Made by a program: the position numbers and the translations under genes. A DNA stretch of 46,816 nt from a virus. The stretch lies in IMG/VR virus record IMGVR_UViG_3300021420_000056, positions 1-46,816 of that record. One strand, given 5' to 3'. The notes beneath the pieces were generated by a model, which was not told the DNA's origin, ran no database searches, and saw only the letters and a list, made by a program, of their open reading frames with translations. Shown piece after piece: positions 1-46,816 of this stretch (position 1 is the stretch's first letter; every line of letters starts with the position of its first letter).

Positions 1-150
1 AGCGGCGGCGGCTTCTTCACTCAGTTTTGAAGGCTTAGTCGCCGAGGGCTTTAGCGAAAAGAACTCCAGGTCGTTCTCGATGGCATCGTATCCCTTTGAC
101 TTAGCCAACTCGGCGGCATAACGGTCGGCGATAGCTTGGTGAATGTCGCC
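1..150. repeat. Terminal direct repeat, left copy
   Basis: These 150 bases recur at 46667-46816 with mismatches only at positions 13 (t versus g) and 129 (c versus g). A long open frame crosses the join without a break. This is the usual signature of an assembled circular or circularly permuted phage genome. The two mismatches look like read-end errors, though a true short terminal redundancy cannot be excluded from the sequence alone. Confidence 0.9.
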
Positions 151-2808
151 GGCTCCTCCGATTCCCTTAGATAGCTTGGCGACTTGCGCCTCAGGCACGC
201 CCACCGACCGAAGGAGCCCAACAGCTTCCGATAGCGGCATGGTTCCCTTATCAAAACCTTCAGCAATCCGTGCGCCCTTTTCGCCTGGTACGAGTTGCTT
301 GATCGCCTGAAACGAAGGGGTAGACCAACCTTGTATTCGGAGTGGGTTAGCGGCGCTAGGAGTGCGGACCACCTCATGCTTGCCGTAAAGGCGCTGGATG
401 TGCTCACTCGGCTTGGATTTATGGAAGAACGCTCCCCCGCGAAGTGACTCTTCCGGTTCGCCGGGGCGATCCTGGTAGCGGAATAGACGCGCGACCTCGC
501 CAGCGACCTTCGACGCCTTCTGAGCCTCGTTGATGAGCCGCTGAACGGCGGCCGGGTTCGCGCGCCGAATGGATCTGATATCCGATAGGGGTATCCCCGC
601 GGCCTTCGCTCCAGCGACGAGCGCAGCGCCTTCGTCCGCGCGCTTGCCGAGGTTCTGCGCCGCCGCCATGCCCGCCGCGCCCTTTCCAGTGGTCGAGATT
701 CCGAGCGAACCCGTGAGCGGTGCGCCGCTCTTGGGGTCGGTGTAGGTGAGCTCGCGGCCATACCCAGCGCCGTAGAGATCGTGGAGGGTGGACTCGAGCC
801 CGACGCGTGTGCCGCGGTTGGTCAAGAAGCGCTGGATATTGTCGGCCGGATCGTACCGCGACGAGAGGTTTCCGGACGCTTGCGCTTCGTCGTAGGTCTC
901 GTAGGCTTTGTGTTTACCGACCGCTGCCGTATCGGCGCCCTTGCCGGCGCCCCGTCCGCCGCGCGCGCCCGTCCCGTAGTAGTCCATCACGTCGGAGGCT
1001 CCGTCGAAGCGATAGACCGAGCCGCGCGGACCGCCGCGGTAGGTGTAGCGCGACGTGTCAAACATGCGGTTCTCGTCGATGAGCGCGTGCGCCAGGCTGT
1101 CGTCGTCCATCGCCAGCATCGTGCCGCGGTGCCGCGCGGCCCGCTCGTCGAGCGACGGCCCCTTCATCGGCTCTGGCACGTTTTTGTTCGGAGCGCCTGC
1201 CTTCGGATCGCCGCCGAGTTGCTCAGACCGGCGTTCGATCTCGACGCGCTGCTCGCGGGTCGTGTCGCTAAAGATATCCCGGCGCGCGAGCGACGCACTG
1301 TATCCAGCGCGAGCCTGCGATGATACCCAGCCTCGCCCGAGCCGCACCGCCTCCTCGGCGTTGAGACCGAGATCCTTGGCCGCGTAGCGCAGGACGGCGC
1401 TCGGCGTGAACATCGAGACGAGTCCGCGTACCGCCGGAGAGTTCCGAATAACGTCGCCATGCTGAGCGAGGTCGACCATGACCCGCTCGAGCTCGGGAGA
1501 TTTGGAGGCGACGTTGCGAAGCAGCTTGAGACCATCGCCAACCAATCCAGTCCCGGGCGAGATGAGGTCGAACGCCGTCCGAAGAGCTGCGTCGAACCGC
1601 GGATGGTGCTCGCTCCCCGTCGTCGCCTTGATGAATCCGGGCGAGCCGATCGAGTAACGCTGCTCAGCCTGCGCGAGATGCGACGGACCTTGCATGAAGG
1701 CGTGGCCGACGTCGCCCTCCGCCGCCGCGATATCCCCAAGGCTGCGAGCCTGTGCGAATAACCCGGTACGCTGCGGCGTAATGTAGCCGGCAAGCTGGAC
1801 GAGCCGCGCCGCGATCTCGGCTGGTGGACCGAGGCGCTGCACCCACGGGTTTTCCGCGAGATGCTTTCCAAAGGCTTCGACGCCCGCCGACTGCCGCGAG
1901 AGATTCGCGTCGTATGATTCGGGGACAGGCTTGCGCCCAACGAGCGCTCCGAGGAACGGAGACGCCAGCGTGATCGTCTCGAGGTAGGACCCAATCGCCG
2001 CGAGCGGTCCCTGCACGTCAATGAGCGGCGAAGCCTGCTTTAGCTGATAGTGGCCGTTTCCGTCCATCGTGGTCATCCGCCCCAGCGTTGCCTTCGCCGC
2101 GGCGACGCTGGCCGCTACGCGCCGATGCACGGCGTCGAGCTGCGCGTTCTGCTGAGCCTTGTGGTAGCTATCGAACTGCTCGCCCTCATAGGCCCCACGA
2201 ACGCGCAGCATGTAGGAGCGCACGTCGTTACTCTTTGAGCCGGTGATCTTGTTCGTGACGTCGGTTACGTCGTCGAGGTTCCCCCCGCCGTGAAGCCATT
2301 GATCGATCGCGCCGCCGCCCGTATTGTAGGCGCCAGCCGCCAGCCCCCAATCGTTATATTTTTTGTAGGCCGACGATAGCGAGCCAGCCATATAGTTGAA
2401 GGCTTGCTCGGGATTGGTTCGGTCGAAGCCTTTGCCTTGAGAGGCGACGTTCGCCGCTTCGATTTGCCCCGGACCGTAGGCGCCTGCCGGGTCGCCCGAA
2501 TGCTGCGGGTCGGGAGTCCATCCAGATTCGATTGCGTAGACTGTCCGCATAACGCTGCGCGGGACTCCGCGCTGGTCGGCCACCTTGTCGAGCAACGGCA
2601 AGAGCTTCTGCCCGGCGCTTGAGAAATTCGGGGTTTGCGGCGGAGTGTATTTTCCCCAGTTGAGTCCGGAGGTAGGGGTTGGAGTCGCGTGAGTATCGGG
2701 AACAAAGGCTTTAGCCTGAACGGGTTTATCCGGAGTGAATCCACGCTGCGGCGGAGGCCCTGTCGTTTGTGCCTTTGTAGGAGCGTCGGGAACGAACGCA
2801 GCCGTCAC
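1..2808 (-). CDS. Giant internal virion protein with lytic transglycosylase domain, N-terminal part (936 codons)
   Basis: I translated this frame from a GTG at 2808-2806, which overlaps the upstream stop (GTGA), down to base 1 and found no stop. It continues through the circular junction to 44651, giving about 1,607 aa. Residues about 65-175 form an SLT/goose-lysozyme-type transglycosylase domain: catalytic Glu94 in YAIESG, then GAYGPGQI and AAGAYNTGGGAI. Such domains in large podovirus internal virion proteins (as in T7 gp16) open peptidoglycan during DNA ejection. The rest is Ala/Arg-rich, mostly helical in character and unrecognised. It follows the 645-aa virion protein, as expected for an ejection protein. 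The fold of the remaining 1,400 residues is unknown. Confidence 0.9.
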   Translation of the reverse strand, partial: MTAAFVPDAPTKAQTTGPPPQRGFTPDKPVQAKAFVPDTHATPTPTSGLNWGKYTPPQTPNFSSAGQKLLPLLDKVADQRGVPRSVMRTVYAIESGWTPDPQHSGDPAGAYGPGQIEAANVASQGKGFDRTNPEQAFNYMAGSLSSAYKKYNDWGLAAGAYNTGGGAIDQWLHGGGNLDDVTDVTNKITGSKSNDVRSYMLRVRGAYEGEQFDSYHKAQQNAQLDAVHRRVAASVAAAKATLGRMTTMDGNGHYQLKQASPLIDVQGPLAAIGSYLETITLASPFLGALVGRKPVPESYDANLSRQSAGVEAFGKHLAENPWVQRLGPPAEIAARLVQLAGYITPQRTGLFAQARSLGDIAAAEGDVGHAFMQGPSHLAQAEQRYSIGSPGFIKATTGSEHHPRFDAALRTAFDLISPGTGLVGDGLKLLRNVASKSPELERVMVDLAQHGDVIRNSPAVRGLVSMFTPSAVLRYAAKDLGLNAEEAVRLGRGWVSSQARAGYSASLARRDIFSDTTREQRVEIERRSEQLGGDPKAGAPNKNVPEPMKGPSLDERAARHRGTMLAMDDDSLAHALIDENRMFDTSRYTYRGGPRGSVYRFDGASDVMDYYGTGARGGRGAGKGADTAAVGKHKAYETYDEAQASGNLSSRYDPADNIQRFLTNRGTRVGLESTLHDLYGAGYGRELTYTDPKSGAPLTGSLGISTTGKGAAGMAAAQNLGKRADEGAALVAGAKAAGIPLSDIRSIRRANPAAVQRLINEAQKASKVAGEVARLFRYQDRPGEPEESLRGGAFFHKSKPSEHIQRLYGKHEVVRTPSAANPLRIQGWSTPSFQAIKQLVPGEKGARIAEGFDKGTMPLSEAVGLLRSVGVPEAQVAKLSKGIGGAGDIHQAIADRYAAELAKSKGYDAIENDLEFFSLKPSATKPSKLSEEAAAA

Positions 2809-4742
2809 TGCTTATACTGCTGTCCGTTGTCATAGAAAAGCGTTCCGCGCAGTTGATAGCCATGCTTGCCGTCTGGAAGCGTTCCGGGCGTAGCTCCCGG
2901 AGGAATCGGGTGGCCTTTAACCTTGGCGCCGCCCGACGCCGCGTTAACGGTACTCGTCGCGGAGTTTCCAGCCTGCCCTTTAAGTATGTTGATTGCGGAC
3001 TGCGCCGCGTCGCGCTGGTCCTTCGCGGTCTGGAGCGCCTGCGCCAACGGAGTTCCATCTGGAAGCGTCGCAGAGGTCGGATCTTGGAAGCTGGCTACCA
3101 GGCTCTTGCTGTAAGATAGGATATCGCTATAGTTTTTGTTAGCGCTGGTTAGCAACGCCTGAGCGTCGCGCATTTGGTCCGTGACGCTCCGGTTCTGCGC
3201 GGTGTTCTGCTGGAACCAGGACCCGTCTTGGATCGCTCCTGCCTCGGCGTTATTGCGGCTTACCGAAGCCCACGCTTCCGCTATGTGCGCCTGAGCAAGC
3301 GATCCGACCCATTGAACCTGCTTTCCGAGGTACTGCGTGCGAGCCTGATTGAGTTCGCGGGTCGTCTTCGCGGTGGCGATCTCGGAAAGATAGTTCTGAT
3401 AGCGAGCGCCTTTGAGCACGCCGTTTTGTCGGAAGATCGTCGAGTAGTTCTGCGCTGCCGCACGGAGGGGCTCCATAAGCTGCGGATTCTGCAAGAACGA
3501 CGCCGCCATATCCGGAGTTATCACCCCGCCGGCCGCCGCGCTTTGAATGACTCCGGTGGGGTCCTGGCCGTTCTTCGCCATCGTAATCGCGTCGGTGTAG
3601 ACGCGCTGCCATTCGATCCCGCGCTGCGTTTCGGTCATCACCGGCTTAGCGTTCATTATGTCGCTCGGCACGGTCGTCGGGTCGATCATCGCCGCGGCGT
3701 AGAGCTGCGGCCTATCCGAAGGCTGAGCCTGAGCGATTTGCTGCGCCATGCCCGCCTCGATCGGCGAGGTTCCGTAGGCTTGCATCCCGGTCGGCGTGAC
3801 TCCCGCGGCGGCCATGAGGCCCTGCATCGCTGGCGGAAGCGCGTGCGGTCCTTCGTAGCTCGTCGGTCCCGCGGCGCCCGCACCAGGCGTTCCTGGCGGC
3901 ACGGCGGAAACTTGCGGTTGTGGAGAGCCTTGTGACACACCGCTGGCCGGTGCGGATTGTGTCCCAGGTTGCGACGGAGTTCCGGCTTGCGTTCCCTGCT
4001 GTAGCGCTTGCTGCCGTTGCGTGCGAACCTGAGCCTGATCCGGCGGCATCGTCTCGGGATGCGGACCCTTCCCAGCCTTCACCTGATACGCCTTAACGTC
4101 CGCCGCGATCTCGCTGTTCGTTCGCCCCACAGCCCGCCCATCTTTCACGATCTTTTGGTGAAAATCTGGATGCCCGGTGAGCGCTGGCGTGCGCGCCGCA
4201 GCTTCGAGGTCTTGGTTGTAAACGTCGGCTAGCTGCTTCAAGCGCGGGTCGGCCCACTTCGTACCGAGGTCAGGTTCGCTGCCAACGGGTTTCGTGGTAG
4301 GCTGTGACTGTGAAGCCGCTGACGACGTTTGAGACGGAGAAGGCTGTGCAGCAGGGGCTCCTTGCGATGGAGCGCCGGCGCCTTGAGGAGCGACTTGCGC
4401 GGGGCCCGTCTGAACTGCGCCGCTTCCTGTCATCCCTGCCGAACCAGTCCCGCCAAGTTGACTCCGAACCTGCTGAATCGCCTGATCCAACATAGGTCCG
4501 CTAATCCGGTACATTTGCGCGATACGCTGCATCTGTCCGGTGAACGTGTTGTTCTGCGCGAGGTTCGGATTGCGCGACATAGCCGTGACGTAAGGCGCTA
4601 ATGCTTGCCAGCCTTTTTGATTCAAGGCCGCGTTCTGATCGGCCGCCGCAACGGGCGCGTTCGCAAGCGCAGAGCTAATCCCCTCGATGGGATTCTCCAA
4701 CGCGCCTCCTAAGTTAGGCAAACCGCTAAATCCGGGCATCAC
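2805..4742 (-). CDS. Internal virion / structural protein, 645 aa, unrecognised
   Basis: The ATG at 4742 overlaps the stop of the HNH gene (ATGA), and its own stop overlaps the GTG of the transglycosylase gene. Composition is striking: about residues 95-310 are a low-complexity Gln/Ala/Pro/Ser/Gly linker, the flanks are predicted helical, and Cys appears absent. In podoviruses the gene just before the transglycosylase ejection protein usually encodes another ejected internal core protein (T7 gp15 position), and the sequence fits that. No family was recognised, so the role is inferred from position and composition. Confidence 0.8.
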   Translation of the reverse strand: MMPGFSGLPNLGGALENPIEGISSALANAPVAAADQNAALNQKGWQALAPYVTAMSRNPNLAQNNTFTGQMQRIAQMYRISGPMLDQAIQQVRSQLGGTGSAGMTGSGAVQTGPAQVAPQGAGAPSQGAPAAQPSPSQTSSAASQSQPTTKPVGSEPDLGTKWADPRLKQLADVYNQDLEAAARTPALTGHPDFHQKIVKDGRAVGRTNSEIAADVKAYQVKAGKGPHPETMPPDQAQVRTQRQQALQQGTQAGTPSQPGTQSAPASGVSQGSPQPQVSAVPPGTPGAGAAGPTSYEGPHALPPAMQGLMAAAGVTPTGMQAYGTSPIEAGMAQQIAQAQPSDRPQLYAAAMIDPTTVPSDIMNAKPVMTETQRGIEWQRVYTDAITMAKNGQDPTGVIQSAAAGGVITPDMAASFLQNPQLMEPLRAAAQNYSTIFRQNGVLKGARYQNYLSEIATAKTTRELNQARTQYLGKQVQWVGSLAQAHIAEAWASVSRNNAEAGAIQDGSWFQQNTAQNRSVTDQMRDAQALLTSANKNYSDILSYSKSLVASFQDPTSATLPDGTPLAQALQTAKDQRDAAQSAINILKGQAGNSATSTVNAASGGAKVKGHPIPPGATPGTLPDGKHGYQLRGTLFYDNGQQYKQ

Positions 4743-5230
4743 CGCACCTCCGAGTAAGTCTTACCGTTTATAATGTTGCACACAATTGGCCTAGTCACGC
4801 CGAACTCTTCAGCTAATAGGAACTGGCGTTCTCCATTTGCGTGTCGTAGCCGTATTTCAGCCGCCTGTTGATTTGTTAGTCGTGCTTTATAATGTGATTC
4901 TCCAGGTCGCTTAGGAGGATAGACGGCTCGGCCCTTGGCTTCCTTGTCTCGATTATTATCGGCGAAGGTTCCCATGAATAAATGCGAAGGTCGAACGCAA
5001 GCCGGGTTATCGCAGGAATGGCAAACGCAAAGGTTAGGATCATAGTCGTCAAGGTATCGCTCTGCGACAAACCGATGAGCTTTTATTGTATGCTTTCCGC
5101 GAGTTCCGAAAGATCCATATCCCCATGACTGAATGGCTCCTAGCCAGTTCCAACACCCAGTTGGATGACGGTCGACCTTTATCCAGAACCTATCTTCCAT
5201 TGGACCGCGCAAGTAACTATGAACTTTCAC
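4739..5230 (-). CDS. HNH homing endonuclease (HNH_3 type)
   Basis: 163 aa. Residues about 25-105 carry the pattern of phage free-standing HNH nucleases: GCWNWLG, a conserved HR, then CHSCDNPACV followed by PSHL and NNRDKEAKGR. His and Cys residues for zinc and catalysis are intact. The C-terminal part (about residues 115-160, LTNQQAAEIRLRHANGE onward) resembles the DNA-binding helix-turn-helix common in these enzymes. It sits between the ATP-grasp and the 645-aa gene with 4-base overlaps on both sides, as expected for a mobile gene settled into an operon without disrupting it. Confidence 0.9.
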   Translation of the reverse strand: MKVHSYLRGPMEDRFWIKVDRHPTGCWNWLGAIQSWGYGSFGTRGKHTIKAHRFVAERYLDDYDPNLCVCHSCDNPACVRPSHLFMGTFADNNRDKEAKGRAVYPPKRPGESHYKARLTNQQAAEIRLRHANGERQFLLAEEFGVTRPIVCNIINGKTYSEVR

Positions 5231-6555
5231 TTCACCAGACCTTCGTGGATCGCGACGCCCGACTCTTTGAGCGTCTCTGCTATCTTCGCAATCTTAGCCG
5301 CGCCGTCCGTTCGGCAGTAAATTCCCGAGCAATCTATATCGTCGGCGAAAGCGATGACCTCTTCGTGAAGCTCCGAGAGACTGTCGCCTTGCGCGAGCGA
5401 CAGGCCGACGATCCCCTCGGGGCTCGCCATCTCAAGCCCCTTTCCGACGTCACGCACCTGATAGGCGATGAAGTTTCCCGACCATAGGCTATCGCCGTAC
5501 TCGCTTATCCGCACGCCGACGCACGTTTTTTTGTCGCTCCATTCGACATGCTCCCACGGATACGGCGGAATGGAAAGGCGCACCGCGTAGGCGAGCTCGT
5601 CGGAGAAGCCTGAGCCTCCTTGGCCCGTTCCCACATACCAAAACCACGCTCCGAGGTCGTCGATGAGCCGCGTTGAGGTCGGCTCTGAGTCGTAGCCCAT
5701 GCGCGGAGTCCATTCAAGGAACCACGGCTGACCATCCTTATCGATGATCGCGTTGATATCGTAGAGACACGGCGGCGCGTCGTTCTCCCGAAAGAGCGCG
5801 GCGAGGTTCTCGAAACCGCAGCGAATCGCAGTCTCGTTCTCTTCGGTAAACCACACGGCGTTCGCCGCGCATCCGGTACTCGGTCCGAAATCGTCGTTGC
5901 CGTAGGCTTTGAGCTCAATCGTCGATTCCCACGGTCCGACGAAGGCTCGGCCGTTCCACCAGCGCCCGACCGAAAGCGCAACGCCCGGGATCTTATCTTG
6001 CAGCATCCCGGCCGTGAGGTCCGCAACGCCTTGATCGCGCAGCTCTTGAATGTAGCGAATAAGCTCCTCGGAGTTGTCGCAGCCGCGCGTCGCGTCGGCG
6101 CTTACATACTTGTTGGTTTTGAAGTAGACTTCGCGGTCGAGCGTCTTAGCCCACGTCCGAACTTGAGATAGGGAAGAGAAATCCTGATGCGAAGGAATCC
6201 GGCAACCAGCTTCCTCGGCGATCCCTTGACCAAAGAGACGGTCTTTCTCCAGCCGGTCGCAGAAGGTTCCTCCGCCGACAACGATAAGCCCGCGCTCGCG
6301 CAGTTCGTCGGCCTTGTCTCCAAGCCCAGAGGTTGTGAACAGGACGAGCGATTCGACGGCTCCTTCGGCCCAGGCGACGAACGCTTCGTAATCCTGCTCA
6401 AGATCGAGTATCCCCTCTCCTACGTGCGCGTGGGTGTCCGACCGTTCGCGGCCCTTTCCCTTATCGCAGTAGCACTTTACCTCGTGGCCCTCATCGAGAA
6501 GCCGCGCGGCCATGCTAACGTCCGGGCCTTCCGCTCCAATCATGGCGAAGCGCAT
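5227..6555 (-). CDS. PurD-like ATP-grasp ligase
   Basis: 442 aa, close to phosphoribosylamine-glycine ligase (PurD, about 430 aa). The N-terminus (MRFAMIGAEGPDVSMAARLL) resembles the PurD pre-ATP-grasp domain. Residues 91-120 match the PurD segment in which the VVG strand is followed by the LE-K-F-K-E helix. Lys146 in YFKTNK and the acidic ATP/Mg site around 265-291 (YDINAI, FLEWTPRMGYDSE; compare EFNVRFGDPE in PurD) look intact. ATP-grasp enzymes join a carboxylate to an amine via acyl phosphate. A purine role is unlikely in a late virion operon with no other purine genes, so the substrate is unknown. It is flanked by HNH (4739) and HNH-like (6556) genes. Confidence 0.82.
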   Translation of the reverse strand: MRFAMIGAEGPDVSMAARLLDEGHEVKCYCDKGKGRERSDTHAHVGEGILDLEQDYEAFVAWAEGAVESLVLFTTSGLGDKADELRERGLIVVGGGTFCDRLEKDRLFGQGIAEEAGCRIPSHQDFSSLSQVRTWAKTLDREVYFKTNKYVSADATRGCDNSEELIRYIQELRDQGVADLTAGMLQDKIPGVALSVGRWWNGRAFVGPWESTIELKAYGNDDFGPSTGCAANAVWFTEENETAIRCGFENLAALFRENDAPPCLYDINAIIDKDGQPWFLEWTPRMGYDSEPTSTRLIDDLGAWFWYVGTGQGGSGFSDELAYAVRLSIPPYPWEHVEWSDKKTCVGVRISEYGDSLWSGNFIAYQVRDVGKGLEMASPEGIVGLSLAQGDSLSELHEEVIAFADDIDCSGIYCRTDGAAKIAKIAETLKESGVAIHEGLVK

Positions 6556-6849
6556 TTACACGCACGCACTTACGGTCCGATGTACGACCGCGACGCAAGC
6601 CGATGGTTCGCACAGGCGCATAAGGCGGAACGCCGGCAGAATACCGTACTCGTAGAACCAGAGCGCGCGATGCACTTGAACTTGGTGGCCGTGCCACTTG
6701 ATGAACGGCCCCGTCTTGCGATGGTTCGATCCGAGCCAAAGTTCGCAGCCCGTGTCAAGCGGAACGATGCGCTCGTAAAGCAGCTCGAGTGGAGGGAAGT
6801 CCTCGGTTTGGATCGGAGCGAGAGAAGCGATGTTCTCCGTCGTCATCAT
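6556..6849 (-). CDS. Degenerate HNH-like small protein
   Basis: 97 aa. Residues about 33-90 follow the layout of the HNH gene at 4739 (GCELWLG, conserved HR, then LMRLCEPSACV and a late His), but the histidine expected before the CxxxxC segment is Arg and the region after the last His is truncated. It is probably a decayed or repurposed HNH domain. Its stop abuts the ATP-grasp ATG (TAA then ATG), and its own ATG overlaps the previous stop. Confidence 0.65.
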   Translation of the reverse strand: MMTTENIASLAPIQTEDFPPLELLYERIVPLDTGCELWLGSNHRKTGPFIKWHGHQVQVHRALWFYEYGILPAFRLMRLCEPSACVAVVHRTVSACV

Positions 6850-7778
6850 AACGGGATGAGCCCCGAACCCAGGAAACTCGTGAGGCCGCCCAGCACCCCG
6901 CCGTAGCCGCCACCACTCTGCTGAGAACTTCCGTAGACCTGGTCGAGGATATTGCTGATTGACGAGCCCGCGTTTCCAAGCAACCCAGCTCCGGTCGAAA
7001 GCTCCGAGGACTGGATTCCGAGAGAATCAAGCGCGTTAGTAAACTCGGATTCTGAGAGCCCTGCGTACTCGCTCGACAGGCCGCTATAGATTCCGCCGGC
7101 CGCCGACTCGGCAGACGTGTACTCCGAACCCTGCGCGAGCTTTCCCTGAAGCGCATCTTCCATCGCTTGGAGGTGCTGCTGCGATGCGATCGATCCGAGC
7201 TGCACGGCGGTCTGCGATGACTGCGTTCCGGCCGCTCCAGCGAGGTTCTCGGCGAGCAAAGCGGGATTCGCCACGCCACCGCTCTGTGCGGCCATCGTTT
7301 TCGCGGCGCTGGAGGCCGCCTCACCTGCTCCGGTCGTGAGCGCGGCTTCCTCTTGCGGGGTAAAGCTCTTGTAGTTTTCGAGGCCGCCGATAAGTGGCGT
7401 CGCTCCGCCGATGTACGGGTTGCTTTCGAGCGCGCCTGCTGCGCCCGCCGCGCCGCTCGCGTAATTACCCGCCGTTCCGTAGCTCTGGCCGCCAAGAGCG
7501 GTCTGTGATCCGTAAACTCCCTGAAGCTCTGGCGCGACCTGGTTCTTGAAATTGCTCAGGAACCCGGTCCCCATGTTGACCTCTGGCCCGAGAACCGAGT
7601 TCATATCGTTGGTCAACCCGCCGAGCAATTGCGAGTATTGCGAGCTTTGAAGCAGCGACCCGATAATCTCGCCGATTCCGCCGACTCCGCCTAGGATGCT
7701 GGTAAGGTTGAAAGGCGACGAGCCACCACCACCGCCTCCTCCGCCTGAGCCGCCTCCGGACGGGGGGAACCAGCCCAT
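6846..7778 (-). CDS. Gly/Ala/Ser-rich virion protein, 310 aa
   Basis: A poly-glycine N-terminus (PPSGGGSGGGGGGGG) is followed by a mostly helical Ala/Ser/Gln-rich body and a Gly-rich C-terminus. Cys is absent. Location between the nozzle and the ejection proteins and the low-complexity make-up fit an internal core or tail-associated protein. Its start overlaps the GNAT stop. Not recognised at family level. Confidence 0.75.
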   Translation of the reverse strand: MGWFPPSGGGSGGGGGGGGSSPFNLTSILGGVGGIGEIIGSLLQSSQYSQLLGGLTNDMNSVLGPEVNMGTGFLSNFKNQVAPELQGVYGSQTALGGQSYGTAGNYASGAAGAAGALESNPYIGGATPLIGGLENYKSFTPQEEAALTTGAGEAASSAAKTMAAQSGGVANPALLAENLAGAAGTQSSQTAVQLGSIASQQHLQAMEDALQGKLAQGSEYTSAESAAGGIYSGLSSEYAGLSESEFTNALDSLGIQSSELSTGAGLLGNAGSSISNILDQVYGSSQQSGGGYGGVLGGLTSFLGSGLIPL

Positions 7779-8212
7779 TACGCTCCCTCTAAGACGGCGC
7801 GGCGCTCAGCGTCTAGCGCAGCCCCCGGAAACACGAACCCGGCGATTACCGGATCGAGGCCGAGATAATCCTTAGCCCACTTCAGCGCGCGTTTGTTGCG
7901 CGCGAACGTGGACGCCATGCAGTACGGAAAAGCTCCCTGAGCTAGAAATAGCTTTAGCGTCTCGCCGGCATACTTCACGGCACGGACGCCGCGCTTGGAC
8001 GGATGCAGGTAGACGTCGGTCAGTTCGATTCCACCGTCGTCGCGATCGAGATAGCCAAACGCCAACGCAAACTTGTCGCCCTCGTAGAGTCCCCACCAAT
8101 GTTTCGGAGGCTGCGGTCCTACCCGCTCAATGTGGTACTTCCAAAGATACGTGCGTAGCGCCGATTCAACGAACGGATCATCTTCCGAAAGCTCGACGAG
8201 TTTGAAGCTCAC
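7778..8212 (-). CDS. GNAT-family acetyltransferase-like protein in the virion module
   Basis: 144 aa. The order of elements fits a GNAT fold: the beta strand LAFGYLDRD, then GGIELTDVYLHPSKRG (the TDVYLHPSKRG segment resembles GNAT motif A, where acetyl-CoA pyrophosphate binds), helix AVKYAGETLKLFL, then a final strand with FARNKRALKWAK. Small GNAT-like proteins recur among internal virion genes of podoviruses; their substrates are mostly unknown. Here it lies one gene upstream of an HNH-like gene and two upstream of the ATP-grasp enzyme. Confidence 0.72.
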   Translation of the reverse strand: MSFKLVELSEDDPFVESALRTYLWKYHIERVGPQPPKHWWGLYEGDKFALAFGYLDRDDGGIELTDVYLHPSKRGVRAVKYAGETLKLFLAQGAFPYCMASTFARNKRALKWAKDYLGLDPVIAGFVFPGAALDAERRAVLEGA

Positions 8213-8760
8213 GCGTTCGCGATACCTTGGAGACCTCCGAAGCCTCCACCACCCAGGATTGGCGGCGTTGGCATTCCGGGTCCGGTGCGCTGAATGGGAT
8301 TAGAAACCACCCCACCGCCGCCACCTATTCCGCCGTGGCCCCCGCCTCCGCCGTGCATGGAGCCTCCACCACCTCCGCCGCCGACCCCACCGTGGTGTTG
8401 CTGGCCGGTCGCCTTCATGGCGTTTCCACCGCCGTTGCGGTTGCCGCCGAACATCGATCCAAGGTAGCCGTAGGGTGTTCCGAATTGGCCTTGCGCGGTT
8501 CCAGAGGGTCCGGTGCGGCCGATGATAGAGCCGCCGCTCGATAGCGTGGCGCCCGGCGAACCCATGATGCTGCCGCTGTTGCCGCCTCCCTGGGCTCCCC
8601 CGAGGATGCTGAGCAGGCCGCCAAGGCCGCCCATCCCTCCAAAGTTTCCGCCGCCGCCAGGTTGCATCGTACCGCCGCCGGGAAAACCAGAGATCCCGCC
8701 GCCGAAACCGCCGCCTCCGCCGCTCATCAAAAGTTGAAGGATTCCGCCGAGCCCTGCCAT
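8209..8760 (-). CDS. Extremely Gly-rich protein with Gly-His stretches, 183 aa
   Basis: Glycine makes up roughly half the protein, with runs such as GGGGGGGSMHGGGGGHGG. A short hydrophobic N-terminus (MAGLGGILQLLM) precedes it. No domain can be assigned. The ATG overlaps nothing upstream (19-base gap to 8780) and the stop overlaps the GNAT start. A flexible virion linker or a metal-binding Gly/His protein are both possible. Confidence 0.75.
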   Translation of the reverse strand: MAGLGGILQLLMSGGGGGFGGGISGFPGGGTMQPGGGGNFGGMGGLGGLLSILGGAQGGGNSGSIMGSPGATLSSGGSIIGRTGPSGTAQGQFGTPYGYLGSMFGGNRNGGGNAMKATGQQHHGGVGGGGGGGSMHGGGGGHGGIGGGGGVVSNPIQRTGPGMPTPPILGGGGFGGLQGIANA

Positions 8761-8779
8761 CGCTAGCCCCTATTCTACA

Positions 8780-9292
8780 CTAAGCTGCCGTCGCGGGAGG
8801 AATCCCGACGACGTGGGCGTTGCAAAGGACCGTCAAGGTCTGAGCCGCGGCGGTCGCAAGAGCGACAATCCGCGCAACCCCGACCACTTTGCCGCCGTTG
8901 AAGGTTGCCCCTGGTGGCAGCGTCCAGACGTTCTGCGGAGATATCCCGCCGTACTGAAGCTGCCGAGAAAAGTTTACGGTGAATCCGTTGCCCTGCTCGG
9001 CGAGATCGAGCGTCACAATGACGAGCCCCGCCGCGCCTTTCGCCAGCGTGATATTCGGCAATCCGAGAGCCTGCGTGAAGTGAACGTCGGCCGTCGCTCC
9101 CTGCTGCCCAAGGTGCGGAACCGGCAGCGAAAAGGTCGTAACCATCGATCCGAGGACTTGCTGAATCTGGGCGTTCGAGACAGCCGGCGCCTGAGATTGA
9201 AGCGCTCCGGTCGAGCGAGACGCGGCATGGAAGCCCGGGCCGCCCGAGCCTGGGCTGATCGATACGGGAATTCGTTGCCCAGTGCCACTCAT
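8780..9292 (-). CDS. Hypothetical structural protein, 170 aa
   Basis: A Gly/Ser-rich N-terminus (about 40 residues) is followed by a beta-rich, Val/Thr/Leu-rich domain (FSLPVPHLGQQ, NFSRQLQYGG) ending in an Ala/Thr-rich tail. Its start overlaps the stop of the nozzle gene. Position suggests a tail or nozzle accessory protein; no family recognised. Confidence 0.7.
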   Translation of the reverse strand: MSGTGQRIPVSISPGSGGPGFHAASRSTGALQSQAPAVSNAQIQQVLGSMVTTFSLPVPHLGQQGATADVHFTQALGLPNITLAKGAAGLVIVTLDLAEQGNGFTVNFSRQLQYGGISPQNVWTLPPGATFNGGKVVGVARIVALATAAAQTLTVLCNAHVVGIPPATAA

Positions 9293-11343
9293 GGCTGATT
9301 GTGCCCCGTCTCTGGAATCGCTGGCTTATCGGGCGAGCGAATCGTCCACTGACGCGACATAGTGCCGCCGACCTTAGCTCGGTAGATAACCGCCGGCCCG
9401 ATCGCGTTCGCCGCGTTGTGCAGCACGAGTTGAAGCTGGCAGGTATAGCCGCGGTTTGAGGCACCGTTCGGAAAGCTCTGCCCGGTCGGCAACACGGTTC
9501 CTGGCTGCTGATTGTTCGGCACGTTGAACGCTTTGGTCGGCGGACCGCTCCCGAGATCAACGTCCAACCAAGTGAAATACGAGACCTCGTTTATAAAGAG
9601 CGTGATATCGACGGAGACTCCCGGCTGAATCGGAGCCTCGACCGCGACGTTCTTGTAAATCTTCTCCCACATGCCTTCGCCCGTGTCGCTCTCCTGGCTA
9701 ACGAACGTTGCTACAATGGCGTTTCCGAGATCCGTATCGCCGGTCTGCCAGAGATCGATCGCAAACGAGTTTGGGCGAACCGCCGCGATTTGGTTCATAC
9801 TCAACGGAAAGAGGGTGAGATCGCTAGGCAAGGACGTTCCGAAGCTGCACGACGGGGTCGAGTACGGCAACACGTCCCAGGTCTGCGTGGGAATGTAGTA
9901 CCGTAGCGTTAGTCCGCCCGCATAAACCGAGTTTTGCGGGAACGACCAAAAACAAGTGAGGTCTTTGTACGCTCCCACCGCCGTTTGTAGCGTTGCTGGT
10001 CCGAGCGATTGGAGCAGGTTGTAGATCGGTTTAGAAATCCACTGCACGTTGCTGCCGTCGAAGCTATAGAAACCCTGCGCCGAAAGCCACCAATTGAGGC
10101 CGTTACCCTTGATGAGCGAAAGCGGCGCGATGCAGCCGAGGTCCGCGAAAATCTTTAGCGGCTGGTACGTTGACTCATCCACGCCGTAGACAAGGCTTGT
10201 GGTCTGCCGACGCAAGACCATAAGCGATGAACCGACCGCGCACAGCCCAGAAGGAAAGTCCCCGAACGGAACGCCAGTTATGCCTGGCTGGTTCACTCCT
10301 AGCGTCGTCTCGTTATCCTCGACGAGAAGCACCGCGTTTAGCTTATCGAAACTCCACGGCTCGCCAGCCTGAGAATACTGCACTTGAGTTTGAGGTAAGT
10401 TCTTCGTACCCCTGTCGTTGATTATTGCGCAGACCCACAGCCGGTTTTGGTGCGACTCTATCGGGTTCTTACCCTGGCCTCCTCCGGTGGGGGGCTGGTC
10501 CTGGTTGAGCACGATCTGCTGATTACCCGCGATTGAGGCGTCGGTCGCGTTGTCGGTGTATTGGCTATTGTTCGTCAGCTCTACGAGGAAGAACCAGTTT
10601 GGGGAGTTGGTCGAATAGCGGAACACTTGCGTCGTAAAGGCTGAGCCGTCGTCCTCGTATCCCGCAAAGATTCCTGAAATCAACGTCGCCTTCGTCCCGT
10701 TCTGGTTCTCTATGTTGTACGGGAAAATATCCGACCCATTGTTACGCTGCCCGGTAGAGATCGCGCCCTCGGGAGTCGTGTATTGGTAGGTCGTCGAGTC
10801 CTCGTTGACGTGAGCTATCTTTTGCACGAAGGCGTAAGAGTAAATTCCCGGGGCGAGGGGGTTTGCGACTCCCGGGACGGCCGACACCGCATACCCGTAT
10901 TGTCCTTGTGTGGGCTTCGCGTACTGCCAACGGGCGATGACTAAGCCGCTCGGGCCCATAAAGATTTGCTGGCCGTTGTTCATCCACAGAACGCCGTTGG
11001 CTTGCTTCGACTGCGTGAAAAGCGTGTAGGTTCCGAGCGTTCCGTAAATCGCGTTGAACACGTCGTAGTAAACGATGTTCCCCGAGTTATCCTGAGCGAT
11101 GTAGAAGATTTGGTTCTGCGATACGGTGTAGACCGCCATTTGGATGACGGGGCCTTCGAGGTTCTCGAAGTTGAGGAAGATCGATCGCCCTAGCGCGGTA
11201 GCGAGCGCGCCTTCCAGCCGGTGCGTATCGGAATTGGATAGCGTCGTGGCCGTCTTGGGGTCAGCGTAGATGCTCGCCGTTCGGGTATCGATCCCGGTGA
11301 ACGGACCGCAGACCAGGAGATCGACGATCTCTTGATCCGGCAT
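9289..11343 (-). CDS. Tail nozzle / tail hub protein (P22 gp10 or T7 gp12-like beta-propeller)
   Basis: 684 aa. Repeated beta-blade-like units can be read through the middle, including ESHQNRLWVCAI, QVQYSQAGEPWSF and SLMVLRRQTTSLVYG, then GFYSFDGSNVQWISK. The order 'contact with samples and measurements, hub residues, then YSFDG...WISKPI' is characteristic of podovirus nozzle propellers. The C-terminal 200 residues are a separate beta domain (MSRQWTIRSPD). It would cap the tail tube below the adaptor. The gene follows the fibre-like gene and precedes the internal virion genes. Confidence 0.8.
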   Translation of the reverse strand: MPDQEIVDLLVCGPFTGIDTRTASIYADPKTATTLSNSDTHRLEGALATALGRSIFLNFENLEGPVIQMAVYTVSQNQIFYIAQDNSGNIVYYDVFNAIYGTLGTYTLFTQSKQANGVLWMNNGQQIFMGPSGLVIARWQYAKPTQGQYGYAVSAVPGVANPLAPGIYSYAFVQKIAHVNEDSTTYQYTTPEGAISTGQRNNGSDIFPYNIENQNGTKATLISGIFAGYEDDGSAFTTQVFRYSTNSPNWFFLVELTNNSQYTDNATDASIAGNQQIVLNQDQPPTGGGQGKNPIESHQNRLWVCAIINDRGTKNLPQTQVQYSQAGEPWSFDKLNAVLLVEDNETTLGVNQPGITGVPFGDFPSGLCAVGSSLMVLRRQTTSLVYGVDESTYQPLKIFADLGCIAPLSLIKGNGLNWWLSAQGFYSFDGSNVQWISKPIYNLLQSLGPATLQTAVGAYKDLTCFWSFPQNSVYAGGLTLRYYIPTQTWDVLPYSTPSCSFGTSLPSDLTLFPLSMNQIAAVRPNSFAIDLWQTGDTDLGNAIVATFVSQESDTGEGMWEKIYKNVAVEAPIQPGVSVDITLFINEVSYFTWLDVDLGSGPPTKAFNVPNNQQPGTVLPTGQSFPNGASNRGYTCQLQLVLHNAANAIGPAVIYRAKVGGTMSRQWTIRSPDKPAIPETGHNQP

Positions 11344-12991: not shown

Positions 12992-13855
12992 TTAGAACGA
13001 CCCCTGCCGGGATATCTGCCCGTTGAAGGCGCGATACTGGCGCCCGGTGATCATCTTGGGCTGGTCGATCGAGCCAGCGCCCTTGATGACCAGCACGTCG
13101 GATCGGCGCTGGCTCATCTCCGACTTGTATTGCTGCAGCGCTAAAGTCCCGAGCTGCATAGCGGATTGCGTCTCTTCACTGAAGCGACACTCGGACACAA
13201 CGTAACGCGCTAGCGCCGAGCGGCACGACCGCGGAAACCATAGCGTCATCTCGATATCATCGACCACCGGATGCGCCAGGACCACGCGCACGTCCACGTT
13301 GTTCTGGATCTCGCCGTTGATGACATTCGGGCCGCTGTTGGGCGCCGGGACTATCCCGAGGAATCCTCCGTTCATATAGAACGAGGGGCGGTTGCAGACC
13401 GACCAGGGCTGCGTCGTCGGAGCAGGCCAGACGCATTGGTTGAGTTCGCTCGCCGCGGGGAAGGCCGCCGGGGTCTGCGTCGTCCACACGGGGGCGTACT
13501 GGCCGACGTTGCCGCTAGGGCCGCCGCCTCCGGGGACCGGAGGTCCCGCCATCGAGCGCTGGTCGTAGTAGAGCAGCGCGCTCCCCTCCAGAACGTCCAT
13601 GCTCGGCGCCGGCGGGCAGAGCCGCCCGTCGACGTAGACCGCGCGCGGGTAGTCCATGATCTCGGGAAGCTGATACTCCTGGGTGTTGGGCATCGTGGCG
13701 AACGTAACGCGGCACTCCGGAAAGAGAATATCCCGCATGAGCTGGTCGCATGCAGCGGTCAGAAAGTCGAGCATATCGGACGTGTTGTAGCGCCCATCGC
13801 TCCACGGGTCGTTGATTCTGCGGCGCGAGAGCGAGATTACGTCGCTGGCAAGCAT
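12992..13855 (-). CDS. Head-tail adaptor protein (P22 gp4 / T7 gp11-like position)
   Basis: 287 aa. The N-terminus LSRRRINDPWSDGRYNTSDML followed by FLTAACDQLMRDI has the look of phage adaptors that dock under the portal; the C-terminal helix carries SRRRINDP-like Arg-rich contacts and a Gln/Arg-rich tail. Genomic order portal, capsid, adaptor, nozzle supports the assignment. Family call is from order and helix pattern rather than a decisive motif. Confidence 0.7.
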   Translation of the reverse strand: MLASDVISLSRRRINDPWSDGRYNTSDMLDFLTAACDQLMRDILFPECRVTFATMPNTQEYQLPEIMDYPRAVYVDGRLCPPAPSMDVLEGSALLYYDQRSMAGPPVPGGGGPSGNVGQYAPVWTTQTPAAFPAASELNQCVWPAPTTQPWSVCNRPSFYMNGGFLGIVPAPNSGPNVINGEIQNNVDVRVVLAHPVVDDIEMTLWFPRSCRSALARYVVSECRFSEETQSAMQLGTLALQQYKSEMSQRRSDVLVIKGAGSIDQPKMITGRQYRAFNGQISRQGSF

Positions 13856-25116: not shown

Positions 25117-26733
25117 TTACGAGCGTGGGGTCAACGGCCCGGTCCAGCCGCCCCGCGGGACGCCGCGCTGGTCTGGCGATCCGAACCCCGGAGGCTTCTT
25201 CTCCATCATATCGAGGTGCTGGTGAAAGAGGTCCACCGGCTCGCGATCGTCCCGCTCCATCATTATGGTCCGAGCCTTGGGAGCCATCTTCTCCATCTTG
25301 CGGCACATGGCGAGCGAGTCGAGGCAGTCGTCGTGGGAGAGCGACGGGTAATTATCCATCTCCCGAATGACCGGCCCGCACATTCCCTTGCGGAAGCGGA
25401 TCTTCTCGCCGTGGACCTTGTGCTCAAGCCCGAGGATGCGCTGAGCCTTGCCGGTCTTACCCTTCTCCTCGTCCTGAAGCGCGGCGTAGGATCGGACCAT
25501 CGTCGCCATCCCGGATTGGCGGATGAATCCAGTGAGCACGTTCATCATCTCGACGTCGGCCTGAGCCGTCTCGACGAGGAAGCAATCCGGATCGTATTTT
25601 AGGAGCAGCTTGATAATGTCGTGAGCCGCCTGCGACGGAAGCTTGCGCCACTCCTGGCTCTCCAGTACCCACCAGTTTTTGTCCGGATCGAATCCCACGA
25701 CGTTGAGCCCGAAGTTATCCGACGACGCCGCGGCGGTCAGCGCCGGGTCCATCGCAAGGACGACGTAGAGCGGCAGGAGCGCGGTCTCGCCGGGAAGCTG
25801 GAGCGCCTTGAACGGGCCGCGGATATACTCGCCCTCGAAAATCTTGATCTTGTCTTTGGGAAACGGCGCCATGCCAAGCTCGTGGACTTCCTGGAAATAC
25901 CACGAGGCAAACCAGCGCGGCAGCACGGTAAGGCGCTGCTGCTCAAGGAACTCTTCGTTTAGATCGCGCGGGAAGAAATAGACGAGGTCCCCGTTTTCAT
26001 CGCGCGTGTAAACCTTGCGAATATACTCCCGAAAGTCTGGCTGGTGACCGTTCTCGACCAGCTCGATGTTCTTCTCACGAATCTTGTGGTAGACGTCGAT
26101 GTTCGACCACTGCGTTCCGGTGACGAGCAGCACGCCCCACTTCGGGAGGACCGGCTTGGTCGAATCGATCAGCTTCTCGGCCTTCTGCATTTCCACGATC
26201 GAGTCGCAGTTCGTCTCGGTAACAAGGTCGTCACAGAGGATGAAATCGACGTGCTTGCCGGCGGCGGACGATTTGAGCCCGGATACCGCTACGGTCGGGT
26301 CGAGGATGCCCGCTCGCGTGCGCGTGTTGACCGTGAACTTAAACGTCGTCCAGAGCGGCGATCCGATTGAAACGTCGCCGAACGTGTCAAGAATCTCGGG
26401 ATTCTTCTGTAGCACCTCTTGGATCGCCGCGAGCATATCCTTGGCAAGCTCGCGAGCCGCGCGGTAGATCATAATGGAGATATCGGGAAAGCGCAGGACG
26501 AGGTAGACGATGAGCGCCTTAGCGAGCGACGTTTTGTAGGTGTAGCGCGGCGCGAGGTAAAGTTCTCGCGTCTGGGTGTTGGCGCTGAAATCCGGAATGC
26601 AGTGCTCCATCTCTTGCATCATCTCATCGTGCGGGAACTCTTCGAGCTTGTCCAGGATGCGCGTTATCCGGCAAAATCTGCGAAAGTCTGCGAGTAACCA
26701 CGCGGCTCGCTTCGGACGCGGGTAGACGTGCAA
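25117..26733 (-). CDS. terL: Terminase large subunit
   Basis: 538 aa. ATPase Walker A at residues 61-70 (APRYTYKTSL; Tyr replaces the usual Gly before Lys-Thr) and Walker B at about 164-169 (FILCDD). The C-terminal nuclease carries AMDPA around 335 and SHDDCLDSLAM around 480, the usual acidic metal-site residues of TerL nucleases. It would translocate DNA into the procapsid. The start is a TTG directly after the previous TAG (TAGTTG). Confidence 0.93.
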   Translation of the reverse strand: MHVYPRPKRAAWLLADFRRFCRITRILDKLEEFPHDEMMQEMEHCIPDFSANTQTRELYLAPRYTYKTSLAKALIVYLVLRFPDISIMIYRAARELAKDMLAAIQEVLQKNPEILDTFGDVSIGSPLWTTFKFTVNTRTRAGILDPTVAVSGLKSSAAGKHVDFILCDDLVTETNCDSIVEMQKAEKLIDSTKPVLPKWGVLLVTGTQWSNIDVYHKIREKNIELVENGHQPDFREYIRKVYTRDENGDLVYFFPRDLNEEFLEQQRLTVLPRWFASWYFQEVHELGMAPFPKDKIKIFEGEYIRGPFKALQLPGETALLPLYVVLAMDPALTAAASSDNFGLNVVGFDPDKNWWVLESQEWRKLPSQAAHDIIKLLLKYDPDCFLVETAQADVEMMNVLTGFIRQSGMATMVRSYAALQDEEKGKTGKAQRILGLEHKVHGEKIRFRKGMCGPVIREMDNYPSLSHDDCLDSLAMCRKMEKMAPKARTIMMERDDREPVDLFHQHLDMMEKKPPGFGSPDQRGVPRGGWTGPLTPRS

Positions 26734-44650: not shown

Positions 44651-46816
44651 CTACGGTGGAGGTGAGGCGGAGAAGCCTGGTGGCGACGTCGGAGCCGGGT
44701 TGTCCGGCTTAAAGCCGGGAATGCTTTGAGCTCCGCTCGGGTTGGACTGTAGCATTTGGATGCGCTGCGCGCCCGTGTTGAGCGCCTGCATCTCCATCTG
44801 GATTTGCTTGATGAGGGTCTGAGTCTGAGCCGTGATCGCCTTGCGATCCTTCGCCGTTACGGACGGGTCCATAAGCTGCGCGTGCGCCTTCATCTGAACG
44901 TAGGAAATCATTTGAGCGTCGCGGAGCGCCGCCGTCCGAAGCTCTTTGAACTCGGGTAGTCCGGGCTGCTGACGGATATTGCGGATCGCCGACTCGATCT
45001 TGCCCGACGTATCGGTGTATTGGTAGAACATCTTACGCTGCGCCTTCTCGACCTGCGGCGACGGGCGCGAGTACGGCACGAGCGAGAGTGCCGAGAGATA
45101 GGCGCTCGGGTCGCCCTTGAAAACGCTGTCCACGTTGCTGACCGTTCCGGCGATGACTTGCCCGAACGGAAGGCGCTGCAAGAGCGACGTCGTCGCCTGC
45201 GAGAGCTGCACGCGCGGGGGCGCGGCGTTGTCCCAAAGCGTTTGAAAGTTCGGAGGCCCGGGTTCGGCTGGCTTGCCAACCGCCGTCGCACCGGCCGCGG
45301 CGAGTATCCCGGTTGGCATCGGCTTTAGCTCCGAGGTCGCGAGATTCAGCATCTTCGTCATCCGAGGCGTGAGCCCGGCGGTCGTGTCACCGCCGGCAGG
45401 GTCGAACACGGAGAGCACGTCCTCGAGATACTTCTGCGGCCCGGGCCAGGACATATAAGCGTCCTTGCCGTTCCAGTTTCCGAGGTGGTAGGTCCCCTCG
45501 GTCTGCGCCCGCCAGCGCGGATCTTGCGTCGCGCGGTTCCAATCCTGCGATCGGGCGTAGGGCGTCCAAACGTAGGACGGCGCGCGGTACATCGCCCGCA
45601 TCATCAGCGGGATCGTCGCCTTGAGCCACGGGTAGAAAAGCAGCGCCCGGTGGAGCATGTTGTCGATCCCGGTTTTCGACAGGTCCAGCGCTGAGCCGAA
45701 GATGCCTGAGACCTTGTTGGCGGCCTCGTCCATCGTGAGGCCCTCGTCCTCGACCATCTCCCGGAAGCGCGCGGTCGCCAGGCGCGTCTCGCCCCAATCA
45801 AAGACGAGCCGCTGGTTTCCTTGCCACGCGCGCGAGAGCGCAGCGTTGCCGGTTTCCCCGAGCGCCGCGAGGACTTGCGTTGCTTTGTCGCCTTGGGCCA
45901 AGTCGGCCGCCTTAGCGTAAGCCTCCTTGAACACGCGTTTGAAGGGCGTATCGAACGACGTGCCAGCGGAGCCACCGAAAACACTCGTGTCACCCATGCG
46001 CTTGATTCCGTCGCGCTCCTCGAGCTTCGCCGTCCATTCGGGCGAAACGTAGCCGTCATCGACGAAGGCCCGCAGAATGTTGATCGGCTTGCCACCCGAC
46101 GCGAGATAGTTCGTCGGCATGTTTATGAACAAGTGGCGCACAGGGTTGTAGATGATCCCGACCCGATAGAGCTTGTTGAAGCCGTCCATGAGCTGGGACC
46201 ACGCGCCGGCCTCCTCGCCGGTCGCGCCCATATCGCGCAAGAACTTGGCGACGCCCGAGTGGTAGGAGAAGTACGGCTTGAGCGACGGGAGGGAGACCTT
46301 CAGGTCACGCGCGAGGTCTCCGGCTGGGACGAAGCCGCTTGTGCGCTCCGCCGCCTCGGCGTTCTTTTGGATGCGGTCGAAGGTCTTGTATTGGTGCGCT
46401 TCGAGATGCTCGTTGATCGCGGCCTGGAGCTTGTCGGACTTGGCCTTGTTGACCACGGCCCGGTCGAGTTGGTCGCCCAGCGCGGAGATGCGCCGCTCAA
46501 GCTTAGAATTAGGGCCGTAGATGGCCTTTGCTACGCTTCTTCCGAGGTCGGCGCCTGCGACGGACTTCCTCGCGCCCGAAGCCTCTGAGACGCGCCCAGT
46601 GGCACGCTGCTCCGCGTTTTCCGCATTTTTTAGCGCCGCGTCCCGCGCAGCTTTAAAGTTTGCCGCAGCGGCGGCGGCGTCTTCACTCAGTTTTGAAGGC
46701 TTAGTCGCCGAGGGCTTTAGCGAAAAGAACTCCAGGTCGTTCTCGATGGCATCGTATCCCTTTGACTTAGCCAACTCGGCGGCATAACGGTCGGGGATAG
46801 CTTGGTGAATGTCGCC
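44651..46816 (-). CDS. Giant internal virion protein, C-terminal part (continues from base 1)
   Basis: This is the C-terminal portion of the same gene. Codons in the duplicated 46667-46816 stretch equal those at 1-150, and the frame continues to a stop at 44651. An apparent internal ATG at 46774 is not the real start, because the frame is open upstream across the junction. The segment is rich in helical, Ala/Arg/Lys/Gln sequence without a recognised catalytic motif, and ends in a Pro/Ser-rich tail (PGFSASPPP). I infer a role in the ejected core or channel, as for large podovirus ejection proteins. A holin-like gene begins just downstream (44637). Confidence 0.88.
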   Translation of the reverse strand, partial: GDIHQAIPDRYAAELAKSKGYDAIENDLEFFSLKPSATKPSKLSEDAAAAAANFKAARDAALKNAENAEQRATGRVSEASGARKSVAGADLGRSVAKAIYGPNSKLERRISALGDQLDRAVVNKAKSDKLQAAINEHLEAHQYKTFDRIQKNAEAAERTSGFVPAGDLARDLKVSLPSLKPYFSYHSGVAKFLRDMGATGEEAGAWSQLMDGFNKLYRVGIIYNPVRHLFINMPTNYLASGGKPINILRAFVDDGYVSPEWTAKLEERDGIKRMGDTSVFGGSAGTSFDTPFKRVFKEAYAKAADLAQGDKATQVLAALGETGNAALSRAWQGNQRLVFDWGETRLATARFREMVEDEGLTMDEAANKVSGIFGSALDLSKTGIDNMLHRALLFYPWLKATIPLMMRAMYRAPSYVWTPYARSQDWNRATQDPRWRAQTEGTYHLGNWNGKDAYMSWPGPQKYLEDVLSVFDPAGGDTTAGLTPRMTKMLNLATSELKPMPTGILAAAGATAVGKPAEPGPPNFQTLWDNAAPPRVQLSQATTSLLQRLPFGQVIAGTVSNVDSVFKGDPSAYLSALSLVPYSRPSPQVEKAQRKMFYQYTDTSGKIESAIRNIRQQPGLPEFKELRTAALRDAQMISYVQMKAHAQLMDPSVTAKDRKAITAQTQTLIKQIQMEMQALNTGAQRIQMLQSNPSGAQSIPGFKPDNPAPTSPPGFSASPPP
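46667..46816. repeat. Terminal direct repeat, right copy
   Basis: Second copy of the 150-base end repeat, 148 of 150 identical to the left end. It lies inside the coding frame of the large transglycosylase gene, whose codons remain in phase when position 46667 is equated with position 1. Confidence 0.9.

Follow-up and report, generated by a model that had tools for sequence, protein, structure and literature searches.

The genes for phage ejection proteins normally form one small operon (PMC8954989), and a GNAT neighbouring internal virion proteins has been taken as the equivalent of T7 gp13, for which a part in virion morphogenesis was suggested (PMC6775973). The term ATP-grasp is absent from the ejection-protein review (PMC8954989), and our search of the literature for an ATP-grasp ejection protein found no paper. 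ATP-grasp ligases of the R2K/CDC123 type are known from caudate phages; their predicted activity is the attachment of peptide tags to proteins, they are proposed to modify host proteins, and bacterial R2K.3 genes are linked to GNAT genes (PMC4431377). Viral genes for phosphoribosylamine-glycine ligase ("purD" or "GART") have been reported as purine genes in two virome studies (PMC11360552, PMC11097641), one of which states that the virus copies outnumber their cellular homologues.

Here we describe a PurD-like ATP-grasp ligase encoded among ejection genes in a viral sequence of 46,816 nucleotides (IMG/VR record IMGVR_UViG_3300021420_000056; the whole of this stretch is referred to hereafter as the window). 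The features on which the analysis draws are as follows.

1-2808, minus strand: gp16-like ejection protein, front part, continuing at 44651-46816 over the contig join
2805-4742, minus strand: ejection protein, gp15-like judging from its size and place
4739-5230, minus strand: intact free-standing HNH endonuclease gene, between ligase stop and gp15-like start (HNH_3, E=1.4e-5; phrog_59, E=4.6e-29)
5227-6555, minus strand: PurD-like ATP-grasp ligase, 442 aa, ATG start, intact ORF (codons of K146 at 6118-6120, E281 at 5713-5715 and T283 at 5707-5709)
6556-6849, minus strand: HNH-like ORF of 97 aa, truncated and without the catalytic region (phrog_1872, E=1.3e-8)
6846-7778, minus strand: ejection protein, gp14-like judging from its place and its richness in Gly, Ala and Ser; matches no family
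7778-8212, minus strand: GNAT-fold protein (predicted fold), 144 aa, at the T7 gp13 position
9289-11343, minus strand: nozzle/stabilization-type tail protein (phrog_511 "internal virion protein", 3.2e-8; phrog_3287, 4.2e-4)
12992-13855, minus strand: head-tail adaptor-like protein (SU10_adaptor, E=1.6e-5, slightly below the cut-off)
25117-26733, minus strand: large terminase, the marker in the presence/absence test
44651-46816, minus strand: gp16-like ejection protein, rear part

The gene order in the window is nozzle-type, GNAT, gp14-like, (HNH remnant), ligase, (HNH), gp15-like and gp16-like, the names gp14-like and gp15-like being given by gene order and size. Homologues elsewhere carry recognizable domains: the gp16-like protein of locus L001 (1481 aa) matches an SLT transglycosylase (3.5e-12) and phrog_342, "internal virion protein with endolysin domain" (1.5e-15), and the gp14-like counterpart in another clade (L041:3721-4560) matches phrog_598, "DNA ejection". 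The GNAT assignment comes from the predicted fold (AlphaFold2 pLDDT 84; the PDB fold matches listed are GNAT/acetyltransferase structures); comparing the profiles of two GNAT groups yielded nothing. The two contig ends (window 1-150 and 46667-46816) are 98.7% identical over 150 bp, and the gp16-like gene is cut by them; the genome in this record is therefore probably near-complete, and either circular or terminally redundant.

The ligase frame lies exactly where the initial annotation had placed it, and the description of its product as PurD-like was borne out by profile and fold alike. TIGR00877 (purD) aligns with residues 1-420 over profile positions 1-421 (E=5.8e-8), and a profile made from five ligase-family sequences finds solved PurDs, down to E=2e-21. 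The AlphaFold2 model (pLDDT 94, pTM 0.92, from an alignment of 56 phage and Patescibacterial sequences) has PurD architecture with all four domains, and its PDB fold matches 1-15 are all GAR synthetases (Foldseek, TM 0.70-0.81), with biotin carboxylases next. No Pfam or PHROG model matched the single window sequence, no PHROG model matched the family members tested, and a search of a viral structure library with the ligase model found no full-length relative.

A full-length TIGR00877 match and a PurD fold are also compatible with a true PurD, carried as an auxiliary metabolic gene that boosts purine synthesis. The score, however, is far too low for this (32 bits in the NCBIfam profile search, against a curated cut-off of 288): in the family search, true PurDs reach 362-540 bits and Patescibacterial members of the ligase family 76-101. 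Two PurD motifs are lost, the protein falls in a separate clade and, as had been remarked at the outset, no other purine gene was found among the window proteins. Score, motifs, tree and context all tell against the PurD auxiliary gene, which we reject as highly improbable, and agree with the earlier proposal of an ATP-grasp ligase of PurD type that is not PurD. The ligase is PurD-like in predicted fold and probably also in its chemistry, yet every sequence test made sets it apart from PurD.

To locate where the two families part, residues of 12 true PurDs were set against 83 family rows (71 phage and 12 Patescibacterial; the window and 82 relatives). K146, E281, R285, G287, R415 and D417 are kept from PurD, and the claim that the lysine and the acidic ATP/Mg-site residue persist is correct. 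The claimed PurD-like N-terminal motif is so in fold only; its R-E-H residues are absent. The Arg of G-G-R-E-H, present in 12/12 PurDs, does not figure in the residues common in the family at this column, and the window reads P-D-V. In the motif E-x-N-x-R-x-G-D-P-E, Thr replaces Asn in 83/83 family rows and D-P-E is lost. From PurD to the family the further changes are K106R, E186Q (all but one row), D214E and G268N, with Tyr at position 266 becoming Asp in nearly all family rows. The metal site accordingly reads N268 ... E281-x-T283 in the family versus G ... E-x-N in PurD (the Asn to Thr exchange being N283T), and both N268 and T283 are invariant in 83/83 rows. To our knowledge, Thr at the position of the third metal ligand, where PurD has Asn, is unusual among known ATP-grasp families, a point that weighs against an active ligase.

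Loss of the ATP-grasp catalytic residues had been named as an outcome that would count against a ligase, and these residues are invariant in 75 sequences, reaching down to 22% identity (E103, R106, K146, G191, E214, K216, N268, L280, E281, T283, R285, G287, R415 and D417). The fold, the B-domain Lys and the Mg-binding acid that characterize the ATP-grasp superfamily are all present, K146 and E281 among the invariant positions. This conservation bears on the idea that the protein is a former enzyme which no longer catalyses and is kept in the ejection apparatus as a structural component or chaperone. Placement between the gp14-like and gp15-like genes suits such a role, as does the change of the metal site from E-x-N to E-x-T, but ATP-site and substrate-side residues that stay invariant at 22% overall identity do not, and neither do the family-specific N268 and T283. 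Because these two residues are themselves invariant, the site appears retuned, not dead, and a purely structural role is improbable. The ligase has a dN/dS of 0.074, i.e. it is under purifying selection.

A single-protein search of IMG/VR returned three relatives of the ligase (96, 46 and 43% identity), and among GenBank phages MW202796.1 is related at 25% identity. With the five-sequence profile, one scan found relatives at 532 IMG/VR loci, the best 80 of which were kept and are those whose contexts are described here; the ligase frame is open in all 80, a few being clipped by contig ends. The first cellular relative was seen in one Kaiserbacteria MAG, and the gene is present in 13/380 genomes of the Patescibacteria phylum and in 70/384 (18%) of one class. 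In a tree, the members from phages and Patescibacteria group together in a single clade, and the sampled PurDs in another (SH-aLRT 100 for both clades; quick tree method without bootstrap, with PurDs from Patescibacteria only). The family is large and apparently undescribed, occurs in environmental phages and some Patescibacteria (ultra-small bacteria), and has a consistently altered metal site.

Two phage members, L068 and L080, group with the Patescibacterial branch (SH-aLRT 99), a placement that hints at gene exchange of Patescibacteria with the phages that infect them. One Patescibacterium (G151) has two tandem ligase copies (L111:6202-8946).

The PurD Pfam domain GARS_A is matched at E<=0.001 by 54/75 family members, such that annotation by domain alone would produce a false metabolic story and viral purD calls could take in members of this family. 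Published viral "purD/GART" auxiliary genes may therefore include it; purD-type genes are reported from ocean and snow viromes, and a gene called "purD" in a virus need not stand for purine synthesis.

As first described, the ligase has an intact HNH nuclease gene on one side (downstream) and a degenerate HNH ORF on the other (upstream), an arrangement for which a mobile cassette had been suggested. In L001, whose ligase is 96% identical, the gp15-like gene starts directly where the ligase gene stops and no HNH gene intervenes, which makes the gene at 4739-5230 specific to the lineage of the window, and neither HNH gene is present in L002, L003 or L005. For a presence/absence test, contigs were chosen by terminase so as not to select for the ligase. 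Of the 30 contigs (each 30 kb or longer), the ligase is present in 12, which all belong to the closer terminase group, and absent from 16 with distant terminases. The remaining two are closer-group fragments without ligase: one stops 2.2 kb beyond its nozzle gene, and the other has no nozzle gene. Every contig that reaches the ligase site thus carries it (12/12; 11 had already appeared in the ligase search and G334 was new), and the ligase is therefore a core gene of this podovirus clade. The L001 junction and this core presence, together with the constant place of the ligase in the 28 clade-A loci mapped, refute the notion that it is part of an HNH-borne cassette, to which we accord next to no probability. 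The HNH genes come and go beside the ligase and are no part of the ligase system.

The HNH remnant is common to the window and L001 (L001:9710-10000, 96 aa), with ~17 synonymous and 5 nonsynonymous changes between them (dN/dS 0.07); judged from this comparison it does not look to be decaying and may have a role of its own. L001 also has a second HNH gene (4672-5202, minus strand), antisense and between tail-fibre-like and nozzle genes, a junction at which the window has none. It seems that HNH genes move from one junction of this module to another.

Whether homologues in other phages share the virion context had been posed as a check, and the clade-A loci do so, with gp14-like, ligase, gp15-like and gp16-like genes in this order. 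In the 28 loci mapped, the gene next after the ligase encodes 388-654 aa and the one behind it is large (at least 750 aa); the exceptions are L024, where the contig ends first, the window, where the HNH gene intervenes, and L027, which has a 95-aa ORF. In most other clades, among them those of L066, L071, L041, L040 and L037, the ligase comes after the gp16-like gene. The L038 group has it adjoining a lysozyme gene, away from the ejection genes, and this counts against a tie to ejection. At L054 (459-7994) a 2512-aa protein with a ParB-like stretch directly precedes the ligase, in a context unlike that of the other clades.

We propose that the protein is an active ATP-grasp carboxylate-amine ligase, of a family split from PurD and with another substrate, that is made late and serves virion assembly or entry; we put the probability of this reading at roughly 55%. 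Activity with a new substrate is suggested by the conserved ATP-site residues, by purifying selection and by a metal and substrate side that is altered yet invariant. The ligase would bind ATP-Mg via K146, Q186, N268, E281 and T283, activate a carboxylate as acyl-phosphate and join it to an amine other than phosphoribosylamine. It would be made late together with the ejection proteins and would act in virion assembly or in entry, the most likely target being an ejection protein; alternatively, it may enter the cell with the ejection proteins and modify a host target. Protein modification in or by the virion is our first choice because of the place in the ejection operon and the precedent of phage ATP-grasp ligases of another clade, with their GNAT links in bacteria (PMC4431377).

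The main rival to virion protein modification is a free metabolic role, in which a small-molecule ligase of auxiliary metabolism (amidating, for example, a polyamine, an amino acid or a peptide) is merely carried in the late operon. The Patescibacterial relatives, in those 70/384 genomes, are chromosomal, so the basic chemistry of the ligase need not concern virions. At two of their loci the neighbours point to polyamines: L086 has a pyruvoyl-dependent arginine decarboxylase (PF01862, E=1.6e-23) just upstream of the ligase, and L110 has the ligase with an Orn/Arg decarboxylase, two saccharopine-dehydrogenase-type enzymes and a SAM synthetase-like gene. Such neighbours, however, occur in just 2/51 Patescibacterial loci and in no phage locus tested (the pyruvoyl arginine decarboxylase was sought in 16 phage records and found in none), and with no pattern across the 51 loci the polyamine link is a lead only. 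The strict clade-A place among ejection genes is also not easily accounted for if the enzyme has a free metabolic role, and we regard this role as possible, though on the unlikely side.

The L110 cluster (G253, 122-10833) also has an adenosylhomocysteinase-like gene, and one of its saccharopine-dehydrogenase-type genes resembles homospermidine synthase. Nearly all loci of a Kaiserbacteria-like subclade (L086, L270-L283) have a gene for a membrane histidine kinase next to the ligase or close by.

Within the proposed role in virion assembly or entry, the ligase might itself be packaged and ejected with the gp14-, gp15- and gp16-like proteins, tagging a host or ejection protein or capping a small molecule early in infection. 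We consider this rather doubtful; if true, a packaged ATP-grasp ligase would be a kind of ejection protein for which we found no description in the literature. As a core gene of the ejection operon in one clade, the ligase bears on how podovirus virions are built and how they enter cells.

Set against known systems, the ligase shares with PurD the four-domain fold, the B-domain Lys (K146), E281, R285, G287, the G-x-x-T-G loop and the C-terminal R-x-D. It differs in the loss of R-E-H and D-P-E and in the exchanges E-x-N to E-x-T, Y-x-G to D-x-N, adenine-side Glu to Gln and D-H-K to E-x-K, as well as in its separate clade and its setting without purine context. The R2K ligases belong, by description, to another ATP-grasp clade, and the available part of that account notes no tie to ejection genes (PMC4431377). 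The operon resembles the T7 type in its order of GNAT, gp14-like, gp15-like and large gp16-like genes, the last with a transglycosylase domain (PMC8954989, PMC6775973), and departs from it in having an ATP-grasp ligase gene set between the gp14-like and gp15-like genes.
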